24,970 bases of DNA from a virus: positions 1 through 24,970 of the IMG/VR virus record IMGVR_UViG_3300042197_002065. One strand, written 5' to 3'. The notes beneath the pieces are model-generated. The model saw only the letters and a list, made by a program, of their open reading frames with translations, was not told the DNA's origin and did not search any database. The position numbers and the translations under genes are program-made. How positions within the stretch are numbered: position 1 is the stretch's first letter; each line of letters starts with the position of its first letter. Below, piece after piece: positions 3,686 through 14,889 of the stretch.

Positions 3686-3695
3686 TTTATCCAAT
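3654..3695 (-). repeat. 21-bp perfect tandem duplication over a stop/start junction
   Basis: Two identical 21-base units (3654-3674 and 3675-3695) lie head to tail. Each contains the minus-strand string GGATAAAATGAAAGTATTA, i.e. the TAA of the upstream GT2 and the ATG of the epimerase. The duplication is in frame and adds seven residues to the epimerase N-terminus (MKVLLDK before MKVLVTGG), giving two alternative start codons 21 bases apart. It is directly visible and looks recent because the copies are identical. Confidence 0.95.
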
Positions 3696-4322
3696 ACCCT
3701 TCCACGTTGCTCCATTTGTAGTGTAGTAATGGTTTACTTCTATGGTGGGTGTATATAAATAGTTTTTACCAAGCTTTATAATATCATCTGCCCAGTATCT
3801 ATCTTCCTTTCCAGGAAGAGTTTCATCAAAAAGATAATTGGTCAATATTTCTTTTGTATAAAAGCAAAACGCATTATGTAAAAATGGTCGGTCTTCTAAT
3901 TTAGAATACATATTAATTTCTTCATTATCACCAAAATGAGACCAAATGTATCTTTTACTAATTTTCTTACCTCTATAAATTGGAGTTTGTTTTCCAAAAA
4001 TAGCAACATACTTTTTCAATTCAGTATCAACATACTGCAAATTTAATTTGGTTATTTGTGAATGTGCTGACAATACTAATATAATATCATACTTTGAATT
4101 TTTAACTCCAAAATTTATTGCTTTTCCCGGTGTATAATCATCTATGGTAACTACTCTAATATCACCACGATTGTTAAACAACTTTACAACATCCAACGAA
4201 TCATCAGTAGAATGGTCATCAATTACAATTATTTCAGCATTAGGAATAAAATCTAAAACTGATTGAATAGCAAACCCAATATACTGATGTTCATTGTGGT
4301 TTCTAATAATTACACTAACCAT
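3687..4322 (-). CDS. GT2 glycosyltransferase
   Basis: A 211-residue GT-A family 2 enzyme. The opening 'MVSVIIRNHNEHQYI' is the standard first strand of GT2, followed by 'AEIIVIDDHSTDDS' (nucleotide-binding acidic loop) and 'TPGKAINFGVKNSKYDIILVLSAH', where the usual DxD is replaced by S-A-H. A C-terminal 'GKEDRYWADD' matches the ED motif holding the catalytic base. The SAH in place of DxD is a real departure, so metal binding may differ. I start at the ATG 4320-4322, which has AGGT 8 bases upstream; an upstream ATG would give a 62-base overlap with neuB and 18 extra residues before the conserved start. It overlaps the end of the NeuB-like gene by 8 bases and would act in the same glycan pathway. 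Confidence 0.85.
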   Translation of the reverse strand: MVSVIIRNHNEHQYIGFAIQSVLDFIPNAEIIVIDDHSTDDSLDVVKLFNNRGDIRVVTIDDYTPGKAINFGVKNSKYDIILVLSAHSQITKLNLQYVDTELKKYVAIFGKQTPIYRGKKISKRYIWSHFGDNEEINMYSKLEDRPFLHNAFCFYTKEILTNYLFDETLPGKEDRYWADDIIKLGKNYLYTPTIEVNHYYTTNGATWKGIG

Positions 4323-5115
4323 TGAATCTACCTGAATAATTGTTTCTTGAATCCAATTCACTCTCTTGAAAGTCATCTCCGTGATAAATTAACATTTCAT
4401 CTCTCATTTTGATGTAGTCCGTTAAGTCTTTCATTTGATGTGGTAGAACTGCAAATTTATTATCACGACCCGGTAAATCATTATCAATAGTAAAGTGTTT
4501 TTCAATTACTTCAGCACCCTCACCAATTGCAACTTTAGCAGACTCCACACCTTCAATATGGTCAGAATATCCAACAGGAAATCCAATAGACTTTAAAGTA
4601 TTCATTCGTTGTAAATTCGCCATATGTGGTTTACACGGATATGTAGAAACACAATGTAGTATATACAAATCAGCTAATTCTATAACAGAAGTGTTTTTCT
4701 CAATCTCATCAAATGTGGATGTACCCGTTGACATAAAAATTGTATTAAAGTTTTCATTACAATACTTAATGAGTTCGTGATTACGAGATTCAAAACTTGG
4801 AATCTTCACATCTACTACACCAAGCTCCACTAACAATTCTGCGTCTTTGATGCTGAACACACTTGATAGAAACTTGATACCAACTTCATTACAATAATTG
4901 ATAAGTTCAATGTGTCTTTCTCGTGTGAGTTCGGCTTTTTCGTAAATTTCTCTACGACCATCTTCATCCCAAATGCCAGGTTTGAGTCTTTCAACGGACC
5001 AGCTTTGAAACTTTGCGTAGGTAGCTCCACTTTTTTTCGCGGCCAAAATCATTTTTTTAGCCAACTCCATATCACCGCCGTGATTCCATCCAATTTCTGC
5101 AATTACTTTAACCAT
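4315..5115 (-). CDS. neuB: NeuB-like sialic/nonulosonic acid synthase, no SAF domain
   Basis: A 266-residue protein with the full signature of the NeuB TIM-barrel. It has 'AEIGWNHGG' (6-14), 'AKFQ' (34-37), 'IPSFES', 'MSTGTS' (128-133), 'HCVSTYPC' (154-161), 'GYSDH' (182-186) and 'EKHFTID' with 'LPGRD' (205-218). The family condenses phosphoenolpyruvate with an N-acetylhexosamine derivative (ManNAc or a diacetamido sugar) to give a nonulosonic acid such as sialic, legionaminic or pseudaminic acid. Family members are usually about 340-350 residues, with a C-terminal antifreeze-like SAF domain; here the protein stops after the barrel. Start chosen at ATG 5113-5115, which overlaps the end of the FkbM gene by 13 bases and begins directly at the first conserved strand. 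A NeuA-like gene lies two genes upstream, giving synthase plus activator in one operon. Confidence 0.88.
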   Translation of the reverse strand: MVKVIAEIGWNHGGDMELAKKMILAAKKSGATYAKFQSWSVERLKPGIWDEDGRREIYEKAELTRERHIELINYCNEVGIKFLSSVFSIKDAELLVELGVVDVKIPSFESRNHELIKYCNENFNTIFMSTGTSTFDEIEKNTSVIELADLYILHCVSTYPCKPHMANLQRMNTLKSIGFPVGYSDHIEGVESAKVAIGEGAEVIEKHFTIDNDLPGRDNKFAVLPHQMKDLTDYIKMRDEMLIYHGDDFQESELDSRNNYSGRFNG

Positions 5116-5702
5116 AGTTGATCGTTTTTTCCTAAATGACATTTATATGTAAATCCAAGTTTTTTAAGATTTTCTTCAGTTTTTTTGTTCATACCAAAAT
5201 CATCTTTGTAAACCAATTCAATTAGAACTGCTTTGGTTTCTGAAAAGAAATCTTCACATTCCAATATGTGTGCTTCGGCTCCTTCCACATCTATTTTAAC
5301 AATATGTGGTCTTATAGTTTCATTGTTTGCGTTTTTAAATGGAACACTAATTGAATTTTCTTTGTTAAATATTCCATATGTTCCATTATTTGACTTACCA
5401 TCTGAACGCATTCCTATTGTAAACTCACCATCAGAATTAAACAATCCATATTCGTGTATAGTAAATCGTGTATCTTCTAACTTCCGTAATTCATTTAAAT
5501 TGTCCGGCTGTGGTTCATATGCGTGAAGTTCACATTCAGAATATATTTCCAAAAATGATTCAGAAAAATATCCAATATTAGCACCAATGTCGGCTATAAT
5601 AAGCTTTGGTTGGTTTATTTGAACTTTTTGGTTCAACTCTTTAATTTGTCTTAAAGCACTATCCTTTAAAACGGACTTCATATCTTTTGTATATAAACTC
5701 AT
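5103..5702 (-). CDS. FkbM-family SAM methyltransferase
   Basis: A 199-residue class I methyltransferase of the FkbM family. 'IADIGANIGYFS' (36-47) is the SAM-binding motif I, 'ELHAYEPQPDN' (about 58-68) carries the acidic residue that binds the ribose, and 'VKIDVEGAE' (135-143) is the FkbM hallmark. Family members O-methylate sugars or polyketides, and they are common in capsule and LPS clusters. The C-terminus 'CHLGKNDQLWLK' is typical of the last strands. The start overlaps the stop of the NeuA-like gene as ATGA. Position between neuA and neuB suggests, but does not prove, that its substrate is a sugar of the same glycan, for example a methylated nonulosonate. Confidence 0.87.
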   Translation of the reverse strand: MSLYTKDMKSVLKDSALRQIKELNQKVQINQPKLIIADIGANIGYFSESFLEIYSECELHAYEPQPDNLNELRKLEDTRFTIHEYGLFNSDGEFTIGMRSDGKSNNGTYGIFNKENSISVPFKNANNETIRPHIVKIDVEGAEAHILECEDFFSETKAVLIELVYKDDFGMNKKTEENLKKLGFTYKCHLGKNDQLWLK

Positions 5703-6244
5703 TTCAACTTTTCTTTTACTAATTGTAAATCGGATTCGTAATGAACATCCACTGCGTCATCCTTAATACAACCTAATCTCTTACTTACTTGACCTGAATA
5801 CAAATAGTCATACTTAAATATACGAACAGAACCACTTCGTTTGTAACTTGGATTTACCGTAATCAAATCATCATATTTGTTTTCAATCATATAATCAATA
5901 CACTCATCAAGAGTATGAGACCTATTTGGATTGTCAGGTTGAAGCCCCACTACGAGGTCATATTGGTCATCTCTTTTTTTTCTTACAACATCCAAGTAGA
6001 CATCAACTACTTCAGTATCACCACATAAATTAGCGTTTCGTAAATCAAATCCAACACTATAATGTTCACAAATTGATTTTACTTCATCGCTTTCAGAGGA
6101 TACGATTATGGTAATATCGCGTTTACTTTCATTTGCATAATCTACTGAATGTAGGAACATAGGTTTACCATTCAAGTCACGAATGTTTTTCTTTTCCAAT
6201 CGTGTTGAGTCAAGTTTGGTTGGAATAATTACTAATACTTTCAT
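5699..6244 (-). CDS. neuA: NeuA-like CMP-nonulosonate cytidylyltransferase (short)
   Basis: A 181-residue nucleotidyltransferase. The N-terminal 'VIIPTKLDSTRLEKKNIRDL' matches the NeuA signature (IIPARxGSKRLxxKNI), with the KNI lysine at position 19; 'LNGKPMF' follows, and 'GLQPDNPNRS' (100-109) matches the family's LQPTSPLR. It would activate the nonulosonic acid to its CMP-sugar, the donor for sialyl-type transferases. Canonical NeuA is about 220-230 residues, so this version is about 40 residues short, mostly in the C-terminal part where the dimerisation helix and second metal aspartate reside. 'CIKDDAVDVHYESDLQLVKEKL' (in two parts) does give the terminal 'DI-DxxxDL' type ending. It overlaps its neighbours by ATGA on both sides. 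KdsB-like activity is an alternative. Confidence 0.82.
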   Translation of the reverse strand: MKVLVIIPTKLDSTRLEKKNIRDLNGKPMFLHSVDYANESKRDITIIVSSESDEVKSICEHYSVGFDLRNANLCGDTEVVDVYLDVVRKKRDDQYDLVVGLQPDNPNRSHTLDECIDYMIENKYDDLITVNPSYKRSGSVRIFKYDYLYSGQVSKRLGCIKDDAVDVHYESDLQLVKEKLK

Positions 6245-7047
6245 AATTTAATAAACCAACCATTTTGTTTTAATTTTTCTTTAACTTCTTCAATATTATT
6301 AGTTCCGAATTTTCTTATATTACCATCTTTTTTAAATGGTTCTATGAAAGCAATTGGAAATAATTCTTTGATTACCTCTTCTTGGTTTTGAAATTTATTT
6401 TCAGTATCAAATTTTTCTTGAATAAAAAATGCATTGTTTGAAGAAGGGTCTCCGTGTTGATTTTGTTTCATAACGTGAACCAACCGATATCCATATTGTG
6501 AAAATAATTTAACAAGACCATACAAACTAACACCATAATTTGAACTATATGATGTTTCTGAATCCGCCTTTTGAGTATTTTCACGATACACTTTGGTATA
6601 GGCCTCATCATATGACCAGATTGGATTAAATTCCGCAATTATAACATTTGATTTGTAACCACCCTTTAAAAGAGATTTCATAACCCAGTAATCCATATTA
6701 TCAATATCAACTGAAATATAGTCTATGTTTTTTGGACATTCATATTTTTTTAAAAGTTCAGTTATATTGTTTTCCGTAATCCAAACTTTTGTAATTTCCT
6801 TATCATTGTATTTGTTATCACCATCTAATAAAAGACCTGAAATGTTATACTTTTCCATAATTGGAACAATATTAGATGCTTTTTTAGAAAAAGCACCAAT
6901 GTCCAAAGTGTAGTTATGTTCTATTCCAATATTTTCAAAAATGTGTAAAGCCACTCCTTGATTTCCATCTTCGGTTGGGCTTCCATTATTGGAGTGGTGA
7001 CCCCCAATTAATCCTTCGTATTGTTGTAAGTTATCTAAAAAATACAT
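6241..7047 (-). CDS. FkbM-like methyltransferase-fold protein
   Basis: A 268-residue protein with a class I methyltransferase-like core. 'YTLDIGAFSKKASNI' (about 47-61) sits at the SAM motif I, 'GLLLDGDNKY' at the acidic ribose-binding strand and 'IDYISVDIDNMDYWVMKSLL' (in two parts) resembles the FkbM 'vKiDvEGaE...L' region with D-I-D-N in place of D-V-E-G. Related proteins often occur in phage and bacterial glycan clusters as methyltransferases of undetermined substrate. Because glycine-rich motif I is weakened (DIGAFSKK rather than DIGANxG), activity is less certain than for the FkbM gene at 5103-5702. The start is preceded by AAGGAAA, and the 12-base gap upstream is one of the few real intergenic spaces in the operon. 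A TATAAATA late-promoter match lies just before it. Confidence 0.6.
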   Translation of the reverse strand: MYFLDNLQQYEGLIGGHHSNNGSPTEDGNQGVALHIFENIGIEHNYTLDIGAFSKKASNIVPIMEKYNISGLLLDGDNKYNDKEITKVWITENNITELLKKYECPKNIDYISVDIDNMDYWVMKSLLKGGYKSNVIIAEFNPIWSYDEAYTKVYRENTQKADSETSYSSNYGVSLYGLVKLFSQYGYRLVHVMKQNQHGDPSSNNAFFIQEKFDTENKFQNQEEVIKELFPIAFIEPFKKDGNIRKFGTNNIEEVKEKLKQNGWFIKL

Positions 7048-12616: not shown

Positions 12617-13455
12617 AGATAAAATTCACTTCTAATAAAGTTTGACCCAAGGTTTGGTCTTGCAATTGTAAATGTAGGTGCGTAATTTGAAATAGTATCA
12701 TTAACACCGGTCTGATTACCCACATTGAATTTGGCTTGTGTTTTGATATATAACTGAATACGAATATCAATGTGTCTCATATCTAAAGCCCTCTTAAAAT
12801 TTAAACCAACATCATACGATTTACTCCAATAAAACATAGGTAAGTTATACTCATCAAGTTTTTGTTGAATTTTTTCAATACCAACTCCATCAAATTTGTT
12901 AGAAATCAAAAGAGTTCCAAAATCACCACTACAATGGTTCTTGATTATATTGTCACCAAACTCACGTTCTTGGTCGGTAAAATAAATCTCGGGCTCAATG
13001 TTTGTATAATCATCAAATTGCCAGAATCGTAAAATTTGCTCTAAAAGGGGAACTTCTTCTAAACCATCATAAATACGATAGTGGTCATTAAATACATCAC
13101 CCTCAAACGAGTCAATAAACCCATCTACATATGGGTTATTATCAAAGATGGTATGAACCACCTCAAAGGGGTCTTCCCAAGACGACCAGTTAGATTCTAA
13201 ATCACCAAACATTTCACGAAGTAATTTTGGAGATGGTATCCAAACCTTACATTGTGAATATTTTTCTTTTAGTTTTCGTGGAAATGCTGAAATAATTCCC
13301 CAATCACCCACACCAAAACAAGTTCGTAAAATTACAAAATTTTGGTCTTGAAGATACTCATCGGGTATAAATGAGGGGTCATCTATTGAAAACCCAAGTT
13401 TACCAACTTCACCTACGTTATAAACTTTATTGTTATATGTTCTCCAAAAAATCAT
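12613..13455 (-). CDS. GT9-like (heptosyltransferase-fold) protein
   Basis: A 280-residue protein with weak similarity to ADP-heptose:LPS heptosyltransferases. 'NFVILRTCFGVGDWGIISAFPRKL' resembles the family start (hIlR-x-x-x-xGDxxxxxPx), and the C-terminus 'KFNVGNQTGVNDTISNYAPT' resembles the donor motif (IGNDTGPxHxAxxxGxP) with asparagine/threonine in place of histidine. The middle is divergent, and at 280 residues it is shorter than GT9 enzymes (about 320-350). The missing histidine may mean an altered donor or lost catalysis. Start at ATG 13453-13455 overlaps the dehydrogenase stop as ATGA, and a GGAAGGGCGG stretch lies upstream. Glycan-related function is supported mainly by this fold pattern and by the neighbours. 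Confidence 0.6.
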   Translation of the reverse strand: MIFWRTYNNKVYNVGEVGKLGFSIDDPSFIPDEYLQDQNFVILRTCFGVGDWGIISAFPRKLKEKYSQCKVWIPSPKLLREMFGDLESNWSSWEDPFEVVHTIFDNNPYVDGFIDSFEGDVFNDHYRIYDGLEEVPLLEQILRFWQFDDYTNIEPEIYFTDQEREFGDNIIKNHCSGDFGTLLISNKFDGVGIEKIQQKLDEYNLPMFYWSKSYDVGLNFKRALDMRHIDIRIQLYIKTQAKFNVGNQTGVNDTISNYAPTFTIARPNLGSNFIRSEFYL

Positions 13456-14279
13456 TCCGAAACCGCCCTTCCTTTCATTTTTTCCCAATCTCTTTCAGGT
13501 CTAACCTCAAGATTGGTTTTCCATCCACCTTCAATCGTATTCATATTTACATTGTGTTCTTTTGCAAATGAAATCAATGCGTTTACATCTTTTGGAAAAC
13601 AAGTTCCACCATATCCCAATCTACCATCCGGACCCGGAACGTGAAGATGTGAATCACCAATACGACCATCGGAGGCAAATCCGTAAAGTGCATCATTCCA
13701 ATTGACACCAATTTCCACACCCAAACGATAAAACTCATTCATCACAGCAACTTTGGTAGCAAAGAATGTATTGTTCATATACTTGATATATTCCGCTGTT
13801 GTAGAGTCCGTATGGATGATATGTCGGTTCATAAATCTTTGATTAAATAACTCCTCTACTCTTTTAGTCAAAGATTCTTCACCACCAAAGATAATTCGTG
13901 CTTGAGTCAACATATCCAACTTCGCAGTTCGTTCGGTCAAAAACTCCGGACAAAATACAATGTCGTATCCATACTTTTCTACAAGACCTTTTGTCGTGCC
14001 AGGCAAGACCGTGGACTTGATAATAAAGATAGTATCCTCTTTTGGTGTAATAGATTCAAAGAATTTCTCAATAAATGAAATATCTTGTGAACCATCCATT
14101 TTCATAGGAGTGGGAAGAGCTACAAAGATAAACTCTTGTTCAAGGGTCTCCTCAAGAGTATGAGTAGCCCTCAAAGGGTCAATGTCGTAAACACGAACAT
14201 CTGCGGTTGGGGAGAACGCAAACGCTTGAGATTCTCCAACAAACCCATTACCTATAATTCCAACTTTATAGCGAATCAT
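13452..14279 (-). CDS. Short UDP-glucose/GDP-mannose dehydrogenase (no C-terminal UDP-binding domain)
   Basis: A 275-residue NAD-dependent nucleotide-sugar dehydrogenase. 'VGIIGNGFVG' (6-15) is the NAD loop, 'VFCPEFLTERTA' (108-119) the conserved CPEFL strand, 'AEYIKYMNNTFFATKVAVMNE' (in parts) supplies catalytic K166 and N170, and 'YGGTCFPKDVNAL' (223-235) contains nucleophile C227. The family oxidises UDP-glucose or similar sugars twice to the uronic acid. Full-length enzymes are about 390-440 residues; this one stops just after the central domain, so the C-terminal nucleotide-sugar domain is absent. Such short forms occur in phages. The ATG at 14277-14279 is chosen because it starts the conserved Rossmann strand; it overlaps the upstream GT2 gene by 14 bases. 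It would supply a uronic acid donor, adding negative charge to the glycan. Confidence 0.88.
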   Translation of the reverse strand: MIRYKVGIIGNGFVGESQAFAFSPTADVRVYDIDPLRATHTLEETLEQEFIFVALPTPMKMDGSQDISFIEKFFESITPKEDTIFIIKSTVLPGTTKGLVEKYGYDIVFCPEFLTERTAKLDMLTQARIIFGGEESLTKRVEELFNQRFMNRHIIHTDSTTAEYIKYMNNTFFATKVAVMNEFYRLGVEIGVNWNDALYGFASDGRIGDSHLHVPGPDGRLGYGGTCFPKDVNALISFAKEHNVNMNTIEGGWKTNLEVRPERDWEKMKGRAVSE

Positions 14280-14889
14280 AATAATTATTTTGTTTTTCTT
14301 GTCTTTCAATTGTTTTGGGGTGATACAAAGCCCACTCTTCTTCCATAGGAAGGTAAGCGAATTGTTTATGCCCATCAAGTCTTTCGTGTACTTTATTTAT
14401 CCATTTTATTTCAGAGGTGTTTCTATAAATACGGGTTTGGAAATCAGGCCAATTCACCCACTCTTTTTCGTTTACATTCCATCCCCACTTTTGAATATGT
14501 TGGGGTGTTAAACCTTCTACAGTGTTTACTCTTGGAACAGCATATAAATCAACTGCTGAATTATTTTCTAACATATATGGTAATTGCAAAATAAGATTTT
14601 CATGTGGTAATTCATCCGCATCAATTTGAAAGATGTAATCACCACTACAAAGAGAATTTAAATGGTTCTTATGGTCTGCAAAATGATTATCAAAATCCCT
14701 ACTATACCACTTATACCAGTCCAGTAAGGAGTAGGCTTTGAGTATATCCAATACTTTAGATGTTCCATTTTTAGAATCAAAAAGAACAACAATCTCATCT
14801 TCTTCTCGCTTTTTTTCTAAAAGGAATCCAAGCAATTTTTGGATTTCTACTTCTTCATTTTTGACTGTTATTCCGTAACTTATTTTCAT
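14266..14889 (-). CDS. GT2 glycosyltransferase, WaaE/KdtX-like
   Basis: A 207-residue GT2 enzyme resembling the WaaE/KdtX beta-1,4-glucosyltransferases of LPS core. 'ISYGITVKNEEVEI' is the first strand, 'DEIVVLFDSKNGT' the acidic loop, 'FADHKNHLNSLCSGDYIFQIDADELPHE' (in parts) shows the FxxxxN helix followed by the DADE metal site (D90-A-D92-E93), which is diagnostic for this subgroup. It is somewhat shorter than the usual 250-260 residues, and the C-terminal acceptor region is reduced. Its start (ATG 14887-14889, preceded by AAGAAAG) overlaps the end of the upstream small protein by 35 bases. It acts in the cytoplasm on a nucleotide-sugar donor. Confidence 0.85.
   Translation of the reverse strand: MKISYGITVKNEEVEIQKLLGFLLEKKREEDEIVVLFDSKNGTSKVLDILKAYSLLDWYKWYSRDFDNHFADHKNHLNSLCSGDYIFQIDADELPHENLILQLPYMLENNSAVDLYAVPRVNTVEGLTPQHIQKWGWNVNEKEWVNWPDFQTRIYRNTSEIKWINKVHERLDGHKQFAYLPMEEEWALYHPKTIERQEKQNNYYDSL

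Follow-up and report, generated by a model that had tools for sequence, protein, structure and literature searches.

A conserved phage cassette couples a short, arm-less NeuA to either a SAF-less NeuB or a DAHP-synthase-like protein

NeuB and NeuA are textbook examples of enzymes whose active sites are completed by a domain of the partner subunit. What might such enzymes do in a phage that encodes both in shortened form? The question is raised by the complete 24,970-base IMG/VR record IMGVR_UViG_3300042197_002065, hereafter the window. The right part of the window carries T4-like replication genes, encoding clamp loader, sliding clamp and DNA polymerase, and several longer relatives encode Gp23, the T4-type major capsid protein. 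Across the left two thirds every gene lies on the minus strand, and this part encodes glycosyltransferases, methyltransferases and sugar-modifying enzymes. Overlaps of a few bases between neighbouring genes suggest an operon-like arrangement. An earlier, sequence-only reading described a NeuB-like protein that ends after its TIM barrel, a shortened NeuA-like protein and an FkbM methyltransferase between the two. These genes and their positions were correct (Table 1), but two conserved partners, a dehydrogenase and a GT2 glycosyltransferase, had been overlooked.

Table 1. Features of the cassette in the window.
Feature	Coordinates	Strand	Evidence
GT2 glycosyltransferase, 211 aa, next gene downstream of the synthase	3687..4322	-	PF00535, E=5.2e-19
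NeuB C-terminal tail DSRNNYSGRFNG, retained barrel-SAF linker, stops where SAF would begin	4315..4353	-	
SAF-less NeuB-family PEP-condensing synthase, 266 aa	4315..5115	-	PF03102; AlphaFold2 full barrel; catalytic residues kept
FkbM-type methyltransferase, between NeuA and NeuB	5103..5702	-	PF05050 and TIGR01444
Short NeuA/KdsB-like cytidylyltransferase, 181 aa, without domain-swapped dimerisation arm	5699..6244	-	PF02348, E=2.6e-18
Second FkbM-like protein, between dehydrogenase and NeuA	6241..7047	-	PF05050, E=0.045, below cut-off
D-2-hydroxyacid dehydrogenase, 305 aa	7060..7977	-	PF02826, E=5.3e-37

We examined whether NeuB is genuinely short. From its first ATG the open reading frame (4315-5142, minus strand) encodes 275 amino acids; the start common to relatives is the ATG at 5115, which gives the 266-residue protein. 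The GT2 reading frame also extends further, to 4376, from an earlier ATG. PF03102 matched residues 31-248 of the 275-residue frame (E=1.2e-58; 198.9 bits against a cut-off of 22.1), and the AlphaFold2 model (pLDDT 88.5) contained a complete eight-stranded barrel. Searches of the protein, of the rest of the 24,970-base record and of nine longer relatives (the longest of 298 kb) gave no SAF domain. The protein thus ends after the TIM barrel, as had been claimed, and no separate gene for a SAF domain turned up in these sequences. After the barrel, about 70 SAF-less rows have 35-43 residues, compared with 87-95 in almost every SAF-bearing row, and very few lengths fall between these ranges. The window NeuB chain stops at GRFNG, and GRFNG or GRFDG is the C-terminus of 29 proteins. 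Residue E253 of the linker, just upstream of this tail, also occurs in SAF-bearing NeuBs (0.87). Judged by these comparisons, NeuB ends inside the linker that normally connects the barrel to SAF. We also rejected a frameshift, truncation or contig-end artefact as the source of the short NeuB and NeuA, since their lengths and the C-terminus recur in independent contigs.

The same protein could, in principle, have belonged to a different PEP-condensing family, and the earlier reading had named KDO8P and DAHP synthases. Profile, fold and tree all place it in the NeuB family. The closest NCBIfam families were NeuB and PseI, and neither KDO8P nor DAHP synthase was matched; against the NeuB equivalog TIGR03569 the protein scored 207 bits, under the cut-off of 399.65. 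Foldseek returned 6ncs as the best solved match of the NeuB model, followed by PseI and NmNeuB. The score for 6ncs was 4e-22, compared with 1e-9 for DAHP and KDO8P synthases. Hence, a KDO8P or DAHP synthase identity was rejected.

Where the SAF domain was lost was addressed with a quick maximum-likelihood tree (SH-aLRT support only, midpoint root). In this tree, 73 SAF-less NeuB rows lay on one side of a branch with an SH-aLRT of 100, and phage rows were nested among marine bacteria. Members of this clade derive from Pelagibacteraceae, Prochlorococcus, Synechococcus, SAR86, Flavobacteria and others, and are mostly marine bacteria and phages. Among 197 Pelagibacteraceae genomes, 8 carry a NeuB assigned to the clade by a score gap (>277 bits versus <=203.5 bits). 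Because these SAF-less NeuBs form one clade that includes marine bacteria, loss of SAF is not a product of phage trimming, and the tree indicates that NeuB lost SAF long ago, in bacteria. A SAF-less NeuB as such is already in the PDB (6ncs, from Leptospira); in the tree it falls on the same side as the SAF-bearing NeuBs and represents a separate SAF-less lineage. In a collection of published phages, matches to NeuB had only ~30% identity and came from three records, and NeuA had no matches. The open-access literature yielded no description of a SAF-less NeuB, this cassette or the synthase exchange described below.

The consequences for the active site were assessed against Neisseria meningitidis NeuB (NmNeuB), in which Arg314 of the SAF domain contacts and positions the N-acetyl group of ManNAc and the R314A derivative is inactive (PMC6795526). 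Residue roles were taken partly from Table 3 of that work, which lists E25, Q55, K129, Y186, S213, H215 and E234. The Arg314 equivalent is missing from the window NeuB, which ends before SAF. Equivalents of E25, K53, Q55, K129, H215, E234 and H236 were conserved at 1.00, and the larger set that adds S132, S154, Y186, S213 and D247 at 0.97-1.00. The window NeuB has Ser for T110 and, as in most SAF-bearing rows, Ser for N184. A further group of residues hardly varies within the SAF-less clade and is seldom seen in SAF-bearing NeuBs: W10, W39 and, in one loop, G47, W49, D50, D52, G53 and R54, together with R217 and N219, which lie beside D218, the D247 equivalent. At the C-terminus, nearly every clade member has G262 and R263, which no SAF-bearing row shows. 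With these clade-specific residues the aldose end of the pocket has probably been rebuilt. The suggestion that absence of SAF implies a different assembly or substrate is reasonable, given the role of Arg314; by the tree, SAF loss is not a phage feature.

The shortening of NeuA to 181 residues also proved real, and it corresponds to one defined internal deletion, that of the dimerisation arm, which the earlier reading had left out. In Vibrio cholerae NeuA, residues 137-176 form a dimerisation domain that reaches the partner and brings in the catalytic Arg169 (Arg165 in N. meningitidis) (PMC6580227). In our alignment, all 46 short NeuAs have 3 residues where 22 long homologues have 37-42. The domain-swapped arm and its catalytic arginine (Nm R165, Vc R169) are absent from every one of the 46; most long homologues keep this arginine in the motif RRQDL. 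PF02348 matched with 67.1 bits against a cut-off of 22.6, and the confident AlphaFold2 model (pLDDT 91.4) was most similar to V. cholerae NeuA (TM 0.87 on the query, with ~40 gap columns); 6ifd and 1eyr were its best PDB fold matches. The N-terminal motif, PxxxxSTRL..K, is KdsB-like, and KdsB models gave the best NCBIfam scores (50.3 bits against a cut-off of 155.2 for TIGR00466).

Three substitutions accompany the loss of the arm. R141 is present in 46 of 46 short NeuAs, where 22 of 22 long forms have Tyr; D104 replaces a threonine and H168 an aspartate of the long forms. R141 is a candidate that may stand in for the lost catalytic arginine. Other phage records encode short NeuAs of 176-202 amino acids, except for a few that are extended at the N-terminus or fused to other sequence. 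In a quick maximum-likelihood tree (SH-aLRT only) the short NeuAs fall into a single lineage (SH-aLRT 100), phage-borne except for L019, a Bacteroidetes single-cell genome. The arm loss is essentially phage-specific, a trait of the phage lineage. Taken together, the comparisons indicate that NeuB and NeuA both lack the element normally lent to the partner subunit.

We then considered the genes that travel with this pair. In nearly all phage relatives the order is dehydrogenase, short NeuA, one or more optional variable genes, synthase and GT2. The full order with NeuB as the synthase was found in 34 distinct phage records, window included, and that with a DAHP-synthase-like protein in 12. These counts were made after removing loci fetched twice, and a few near-duplicate assemblies remain in them (e.g. 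L105 and L106). The dehydrogenase, ~305-330 amino acids long, precedes NeuA in almost all phage records, and its nearest solved relatives are phosphoglycerate dehydrogenase and glyoxylate reductase. At cellular loci, GT2 is near NeuB in 26 of 42 cases, mostly directly after it, and NeuA often adjoins a dehydrogenase. The FkbM methyltransferase lies between NeuB and NeuA in the window, as first described. We rejected it as a core member of the cassette, since it varies or is absent in relatives; in L007 and L009 NeuA abuts NeuB. The second FkbM-like gene is missing in most relatives. Suspected sialyltransferase-like neighbours in L024 and L037 matched no Pfam family.

The synthase itself is exchangeable. 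In 15 phage records this role is filled by a DAHP-synthase-family protein of 268-286 amino acids. Its gene follows NeuA, as NeuB does, in 13 of the 15, and the order is permuted in L157 and L158. The protein keeps the metal and PEP motifs GPCS, KRG, DPSH and E.HP. The erythrose-4-phosphate (E4P) motif KPRT has become KPCT; in DAHP synthases, KPR(T/S) contacts E4P. Two aldehyde-side loops carry six-residue insertions, and the protein falls below the curated DAHP synthase cut-off (TIGR01361). The NeuA tree needs at least 3 changes of synthase type. The exchange is seen most clearly in L105 (NeuB; 172,976 bases) and L114 (DAHP-synthase-like; 172,940 bases). These genomes share 97% identity over 5.3 kb downstream, 87% over the dehydrogenase and NeuA genes and 73% over GT2, and the DNA between NeuA and GT2, at the synthase, is unrelated. 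SAF-bearing NeuBs also pair with a short NeuA, adjacent in L140 and fused in L141-L143.

What sugar acid might such a cassette handle? PEP condensation, CTP-dependent activation and GT2 are its steady components, which points to a CMP-activated 3-deoxy-2-ulosonic acid for glycan building. We give slightly better than even weight to a phage-borne cassette that makes and uses such a compound, likelier non-N-acylated than Neu5Ac. From the features above we infer the activities, the aldose, the product, the oligomeric states and the roles of the dehydrogenase and GT2 as follows. The SAF-less NeuB would condense PEP with an aldose, and the short NeuA would activate the product with CTP, each without the domain-swapped arm through which the active site of the partner is usually completed. 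GT2 and neighbouring glycosyltransferases would place the ulosonic acid, or adjacent sugars, on a phage- or host-surface glycan. The dehydrogenase would supply or tailor an associated acid; our guess is that it may provide a D-2-hydroxy acid substituent or act on a pathway keto acid. With the SAF arginine lost, and the slot of NeuB taken in related phages by a DAHP-synthase-like enzyme, Neu5Ac is a less likely product than an ulosonic acid that carries no N-acyl group (Kdo-, Kdn- or heptulosonate-like).

The main competitor is an ordinary nonulosonic-acid pathway, in which the SAF-less NeuB uses host ManNAc or a diNAc-hexose and the cassette yields CMP-sialic, legionaminic or pseudaminic acid. 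It would fit the closest families (NeuB and PseI) and the closest folds (the SAF-less 6ncs, PseI and NmNeuB). The deepest SAF-less relatives, L055, L060 and L072, adjoin a NeuC-like epimerase, which favours ManNAc at least there. The SAF-bearing NeuBs adjacent or fused to short NeuA in L140-L143 weigh in the same direction, and this pairing means that true nonulosonic acids may be among the substrates of the short NeuA. Conversely, the loss of the N-acetyl-binding arginine, the DAHP-synthase-like exchange and the KdsB-like NeuA all weigh against a ManNAc-derived sialic acid, as do the clade's own invariant pocket residues. No NeuC-like gene was seen among the window proteins searched, in line with the earlier observation, and bona fide NeuC scored over the cut-off in 3 of 12 cellular genomes with a clade NeuB; several of the single-cell genomes are incomplete, so that a missing NeuC carries little weight. 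NeuC as a general supplier of precursor was not supported by these counts. The proposed reliance on a host hexosamine is not favoured, because the DAHP-synthase-like enzyme occupies the same slot in related phages. We regard the nonulosonic-acid pathway as unlikely, if a serious contender.

Two further explanations concern the shortened proteins themselves. A complex of synthase and NeuA, each capping the other, might replace the lost homodimer arms. In most records the two genes lie side by side or almost so, and L141-L143 encode them as a fusion, but the fused NeuB keeps its SAF domain and the synthase has been swapped at least 3 times against related NeuAs, which lowers the chance of a tight, specific interface. 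We consider such a complex improbable. Less probable still is that the proteins are degenerate or non-catalytic remnants, either decaying phage genes or genes recruited to encode binding proteins. Both proteins are indeed shorter than the classic forms and score under the NCBIfam equivalog cut-offs; against decay, dozens of phage records agree in protein length, gene order, catalytic residues and C-termini, and both models are confident.

Within the preferred reading, of a cassette for a CMP-activated ulosonic acid, the exchange of synthases suggests that a swap of one gene is how marine phages vary their surface sugar acids. A fuller version is that marine T4-like phages switch the sugar acid of a glycan in this way, with arm-less enzymes and either a SAF-less NeuB or a re-pocketed DAHP synthase, to produce ulosonic acids that are not known from phages so far. 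As a whole this is tentative and somewhat doubtful. The exchange of NeuB and DAHP-synthase-like enzymes between close phages is a natural experiment on PEP-condensing enzymes, and a lineage without both arms can show whether catalysis itself requires them or whether they serve only to recognise N-acylated sugars. The presence of SAF-less NeuB in Pelagibacter, Prochlorococcus and Synechococcus means that the sugar may belong to the surface of very abundant marine bacteria. Standard annotation would call the cassette a set of sialic acid genes, perhaps mistakenly.

Comparison with known systems places each protein beside a characterised relative. The window NeuB shares the TIM barrel, the PEP/Mn residues and PF03102 with NeuB of N. 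meningitidis (NANAS, 1xuu/2wqp) and with PseI (8h2c). Unlike these, it has neither SAF nor Arg314, and its beta2-alpha2 loop and sugar-contact residues are rebuilt. The Leptospira borgpetersenii NeuB (6ncs, 290 aa) likewise consists of the barrel only and is the best PDB match by both sequence and fold; the two differ in lineage and share ~32% identity. The short NeuA has the globular nucleotidyltransferase fold of VcCMAS (6ifd) and NmCMAS (1eyr), and differs in the missing arm and catalytic arginine and in the T to D104, D to H168 and Y to R141 changes. KdsB resembles it in the N-terminal motif and as the best NCBIfam match, but only the first ~130 of 240-250 positions are matched, far below the cut-off, and the phage protein is much shorter. 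The exchanged phage synthase has the barrel and the metal and PEP motifs of type I-beta DAHP synthase (1vs1, 1zco), from which it is set apart by KPCT in place of KPRT, the two aldehyde-side insertions and a score below the TIGR01361 cut-off.

The phage-type cassette of a Bacteroidetes single-cell genome is set within a bacterial polysaccharide cluster. This suggests that phages and Bacteroidota exchange the cassette. In some Pelagibacter loci (L021:4015-6044, L027 and L034) the neighbourhood of SAF-less NeuB includes a sugar-acid dehydratase of the enolase superfamily, together with a distinct 2-hydroxyacid dehydrogenase. Two proteins beside the cellular cassette (L024:9450-10535 and L037:11184-12194) resemble GT42-type sialyltransferases, by eye only; a Pfam search of both gave no match.

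Seven Pelagibacteraceae genomes (G213, G179, G137, G144, G071, G167 and G030) encode lower-scoring NeuB proteins in ORFs of just 278-285 aa. These are probably additional, independent SAF-less lineages. One more shortened sugar enzyme, resembling UDP-glucose dehydrogenase, is encoded in the window. A full-length NeuA adjoins the tandem SAF-less NeuBs of phage locus L017.

Features of shortened, fused and rearranged sugar enzymes
Feature	Location	Remark
Phage-type cassette with short NeuA	L019:6505-8798	Bacteroidetes single-cell genome
Short NeuA/SAF-bearing NeuB fusion	L141:7989-9605	
Short NeuA/SAF-bearing NeuB fusion	L142:8001-9569	
Short NeuA/SAF-bearing NeuB fusion	L143:7992-9569	
UDP-galactopyranose-mutase-like or FAD-dependent domain, then SAF-bearing NeuB	L140:5561-7939	One fusion, 792 aa
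UDP-glucose-dehydrogenase-like protein	window 13452-14378	Lacks C-terminal UDP-binding domain
Tandem pair of SAF-less NeuBs	L017:7980-9590	298-kb phage record
GT2/short NeuA fusion	L134:7308-8564	
GT2/short NeuA fusion	L131:7308-8543	
Second cytidylyltransferase and synthase pair	L145:1044-2496	Contig of L114

On three phage contigs, short NeuA and a full SAF-bearing NeuB form a single protein of 522-538 aa. The larger fusion at L140, which also includes a SAF-bearing NeuB, adjoins short NeuA. Elsewhere, short NeuA is joined to GT2 (411-418 aa). Here, the DAHPS-like synthase, a DAHP-synthase-family protein, lies ahead of the fusion and the cassette order is permuted. The second pair at L145 lies ~2 kb upstream of the cassette on the same phage contig. 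Its 217-aa cytidylyltransferase is more distant, and its synthase, of 270 aa, is a weaker DAHPS/KDO8P-like protein. Possibly, this pair belongs to a Kdo pathway.
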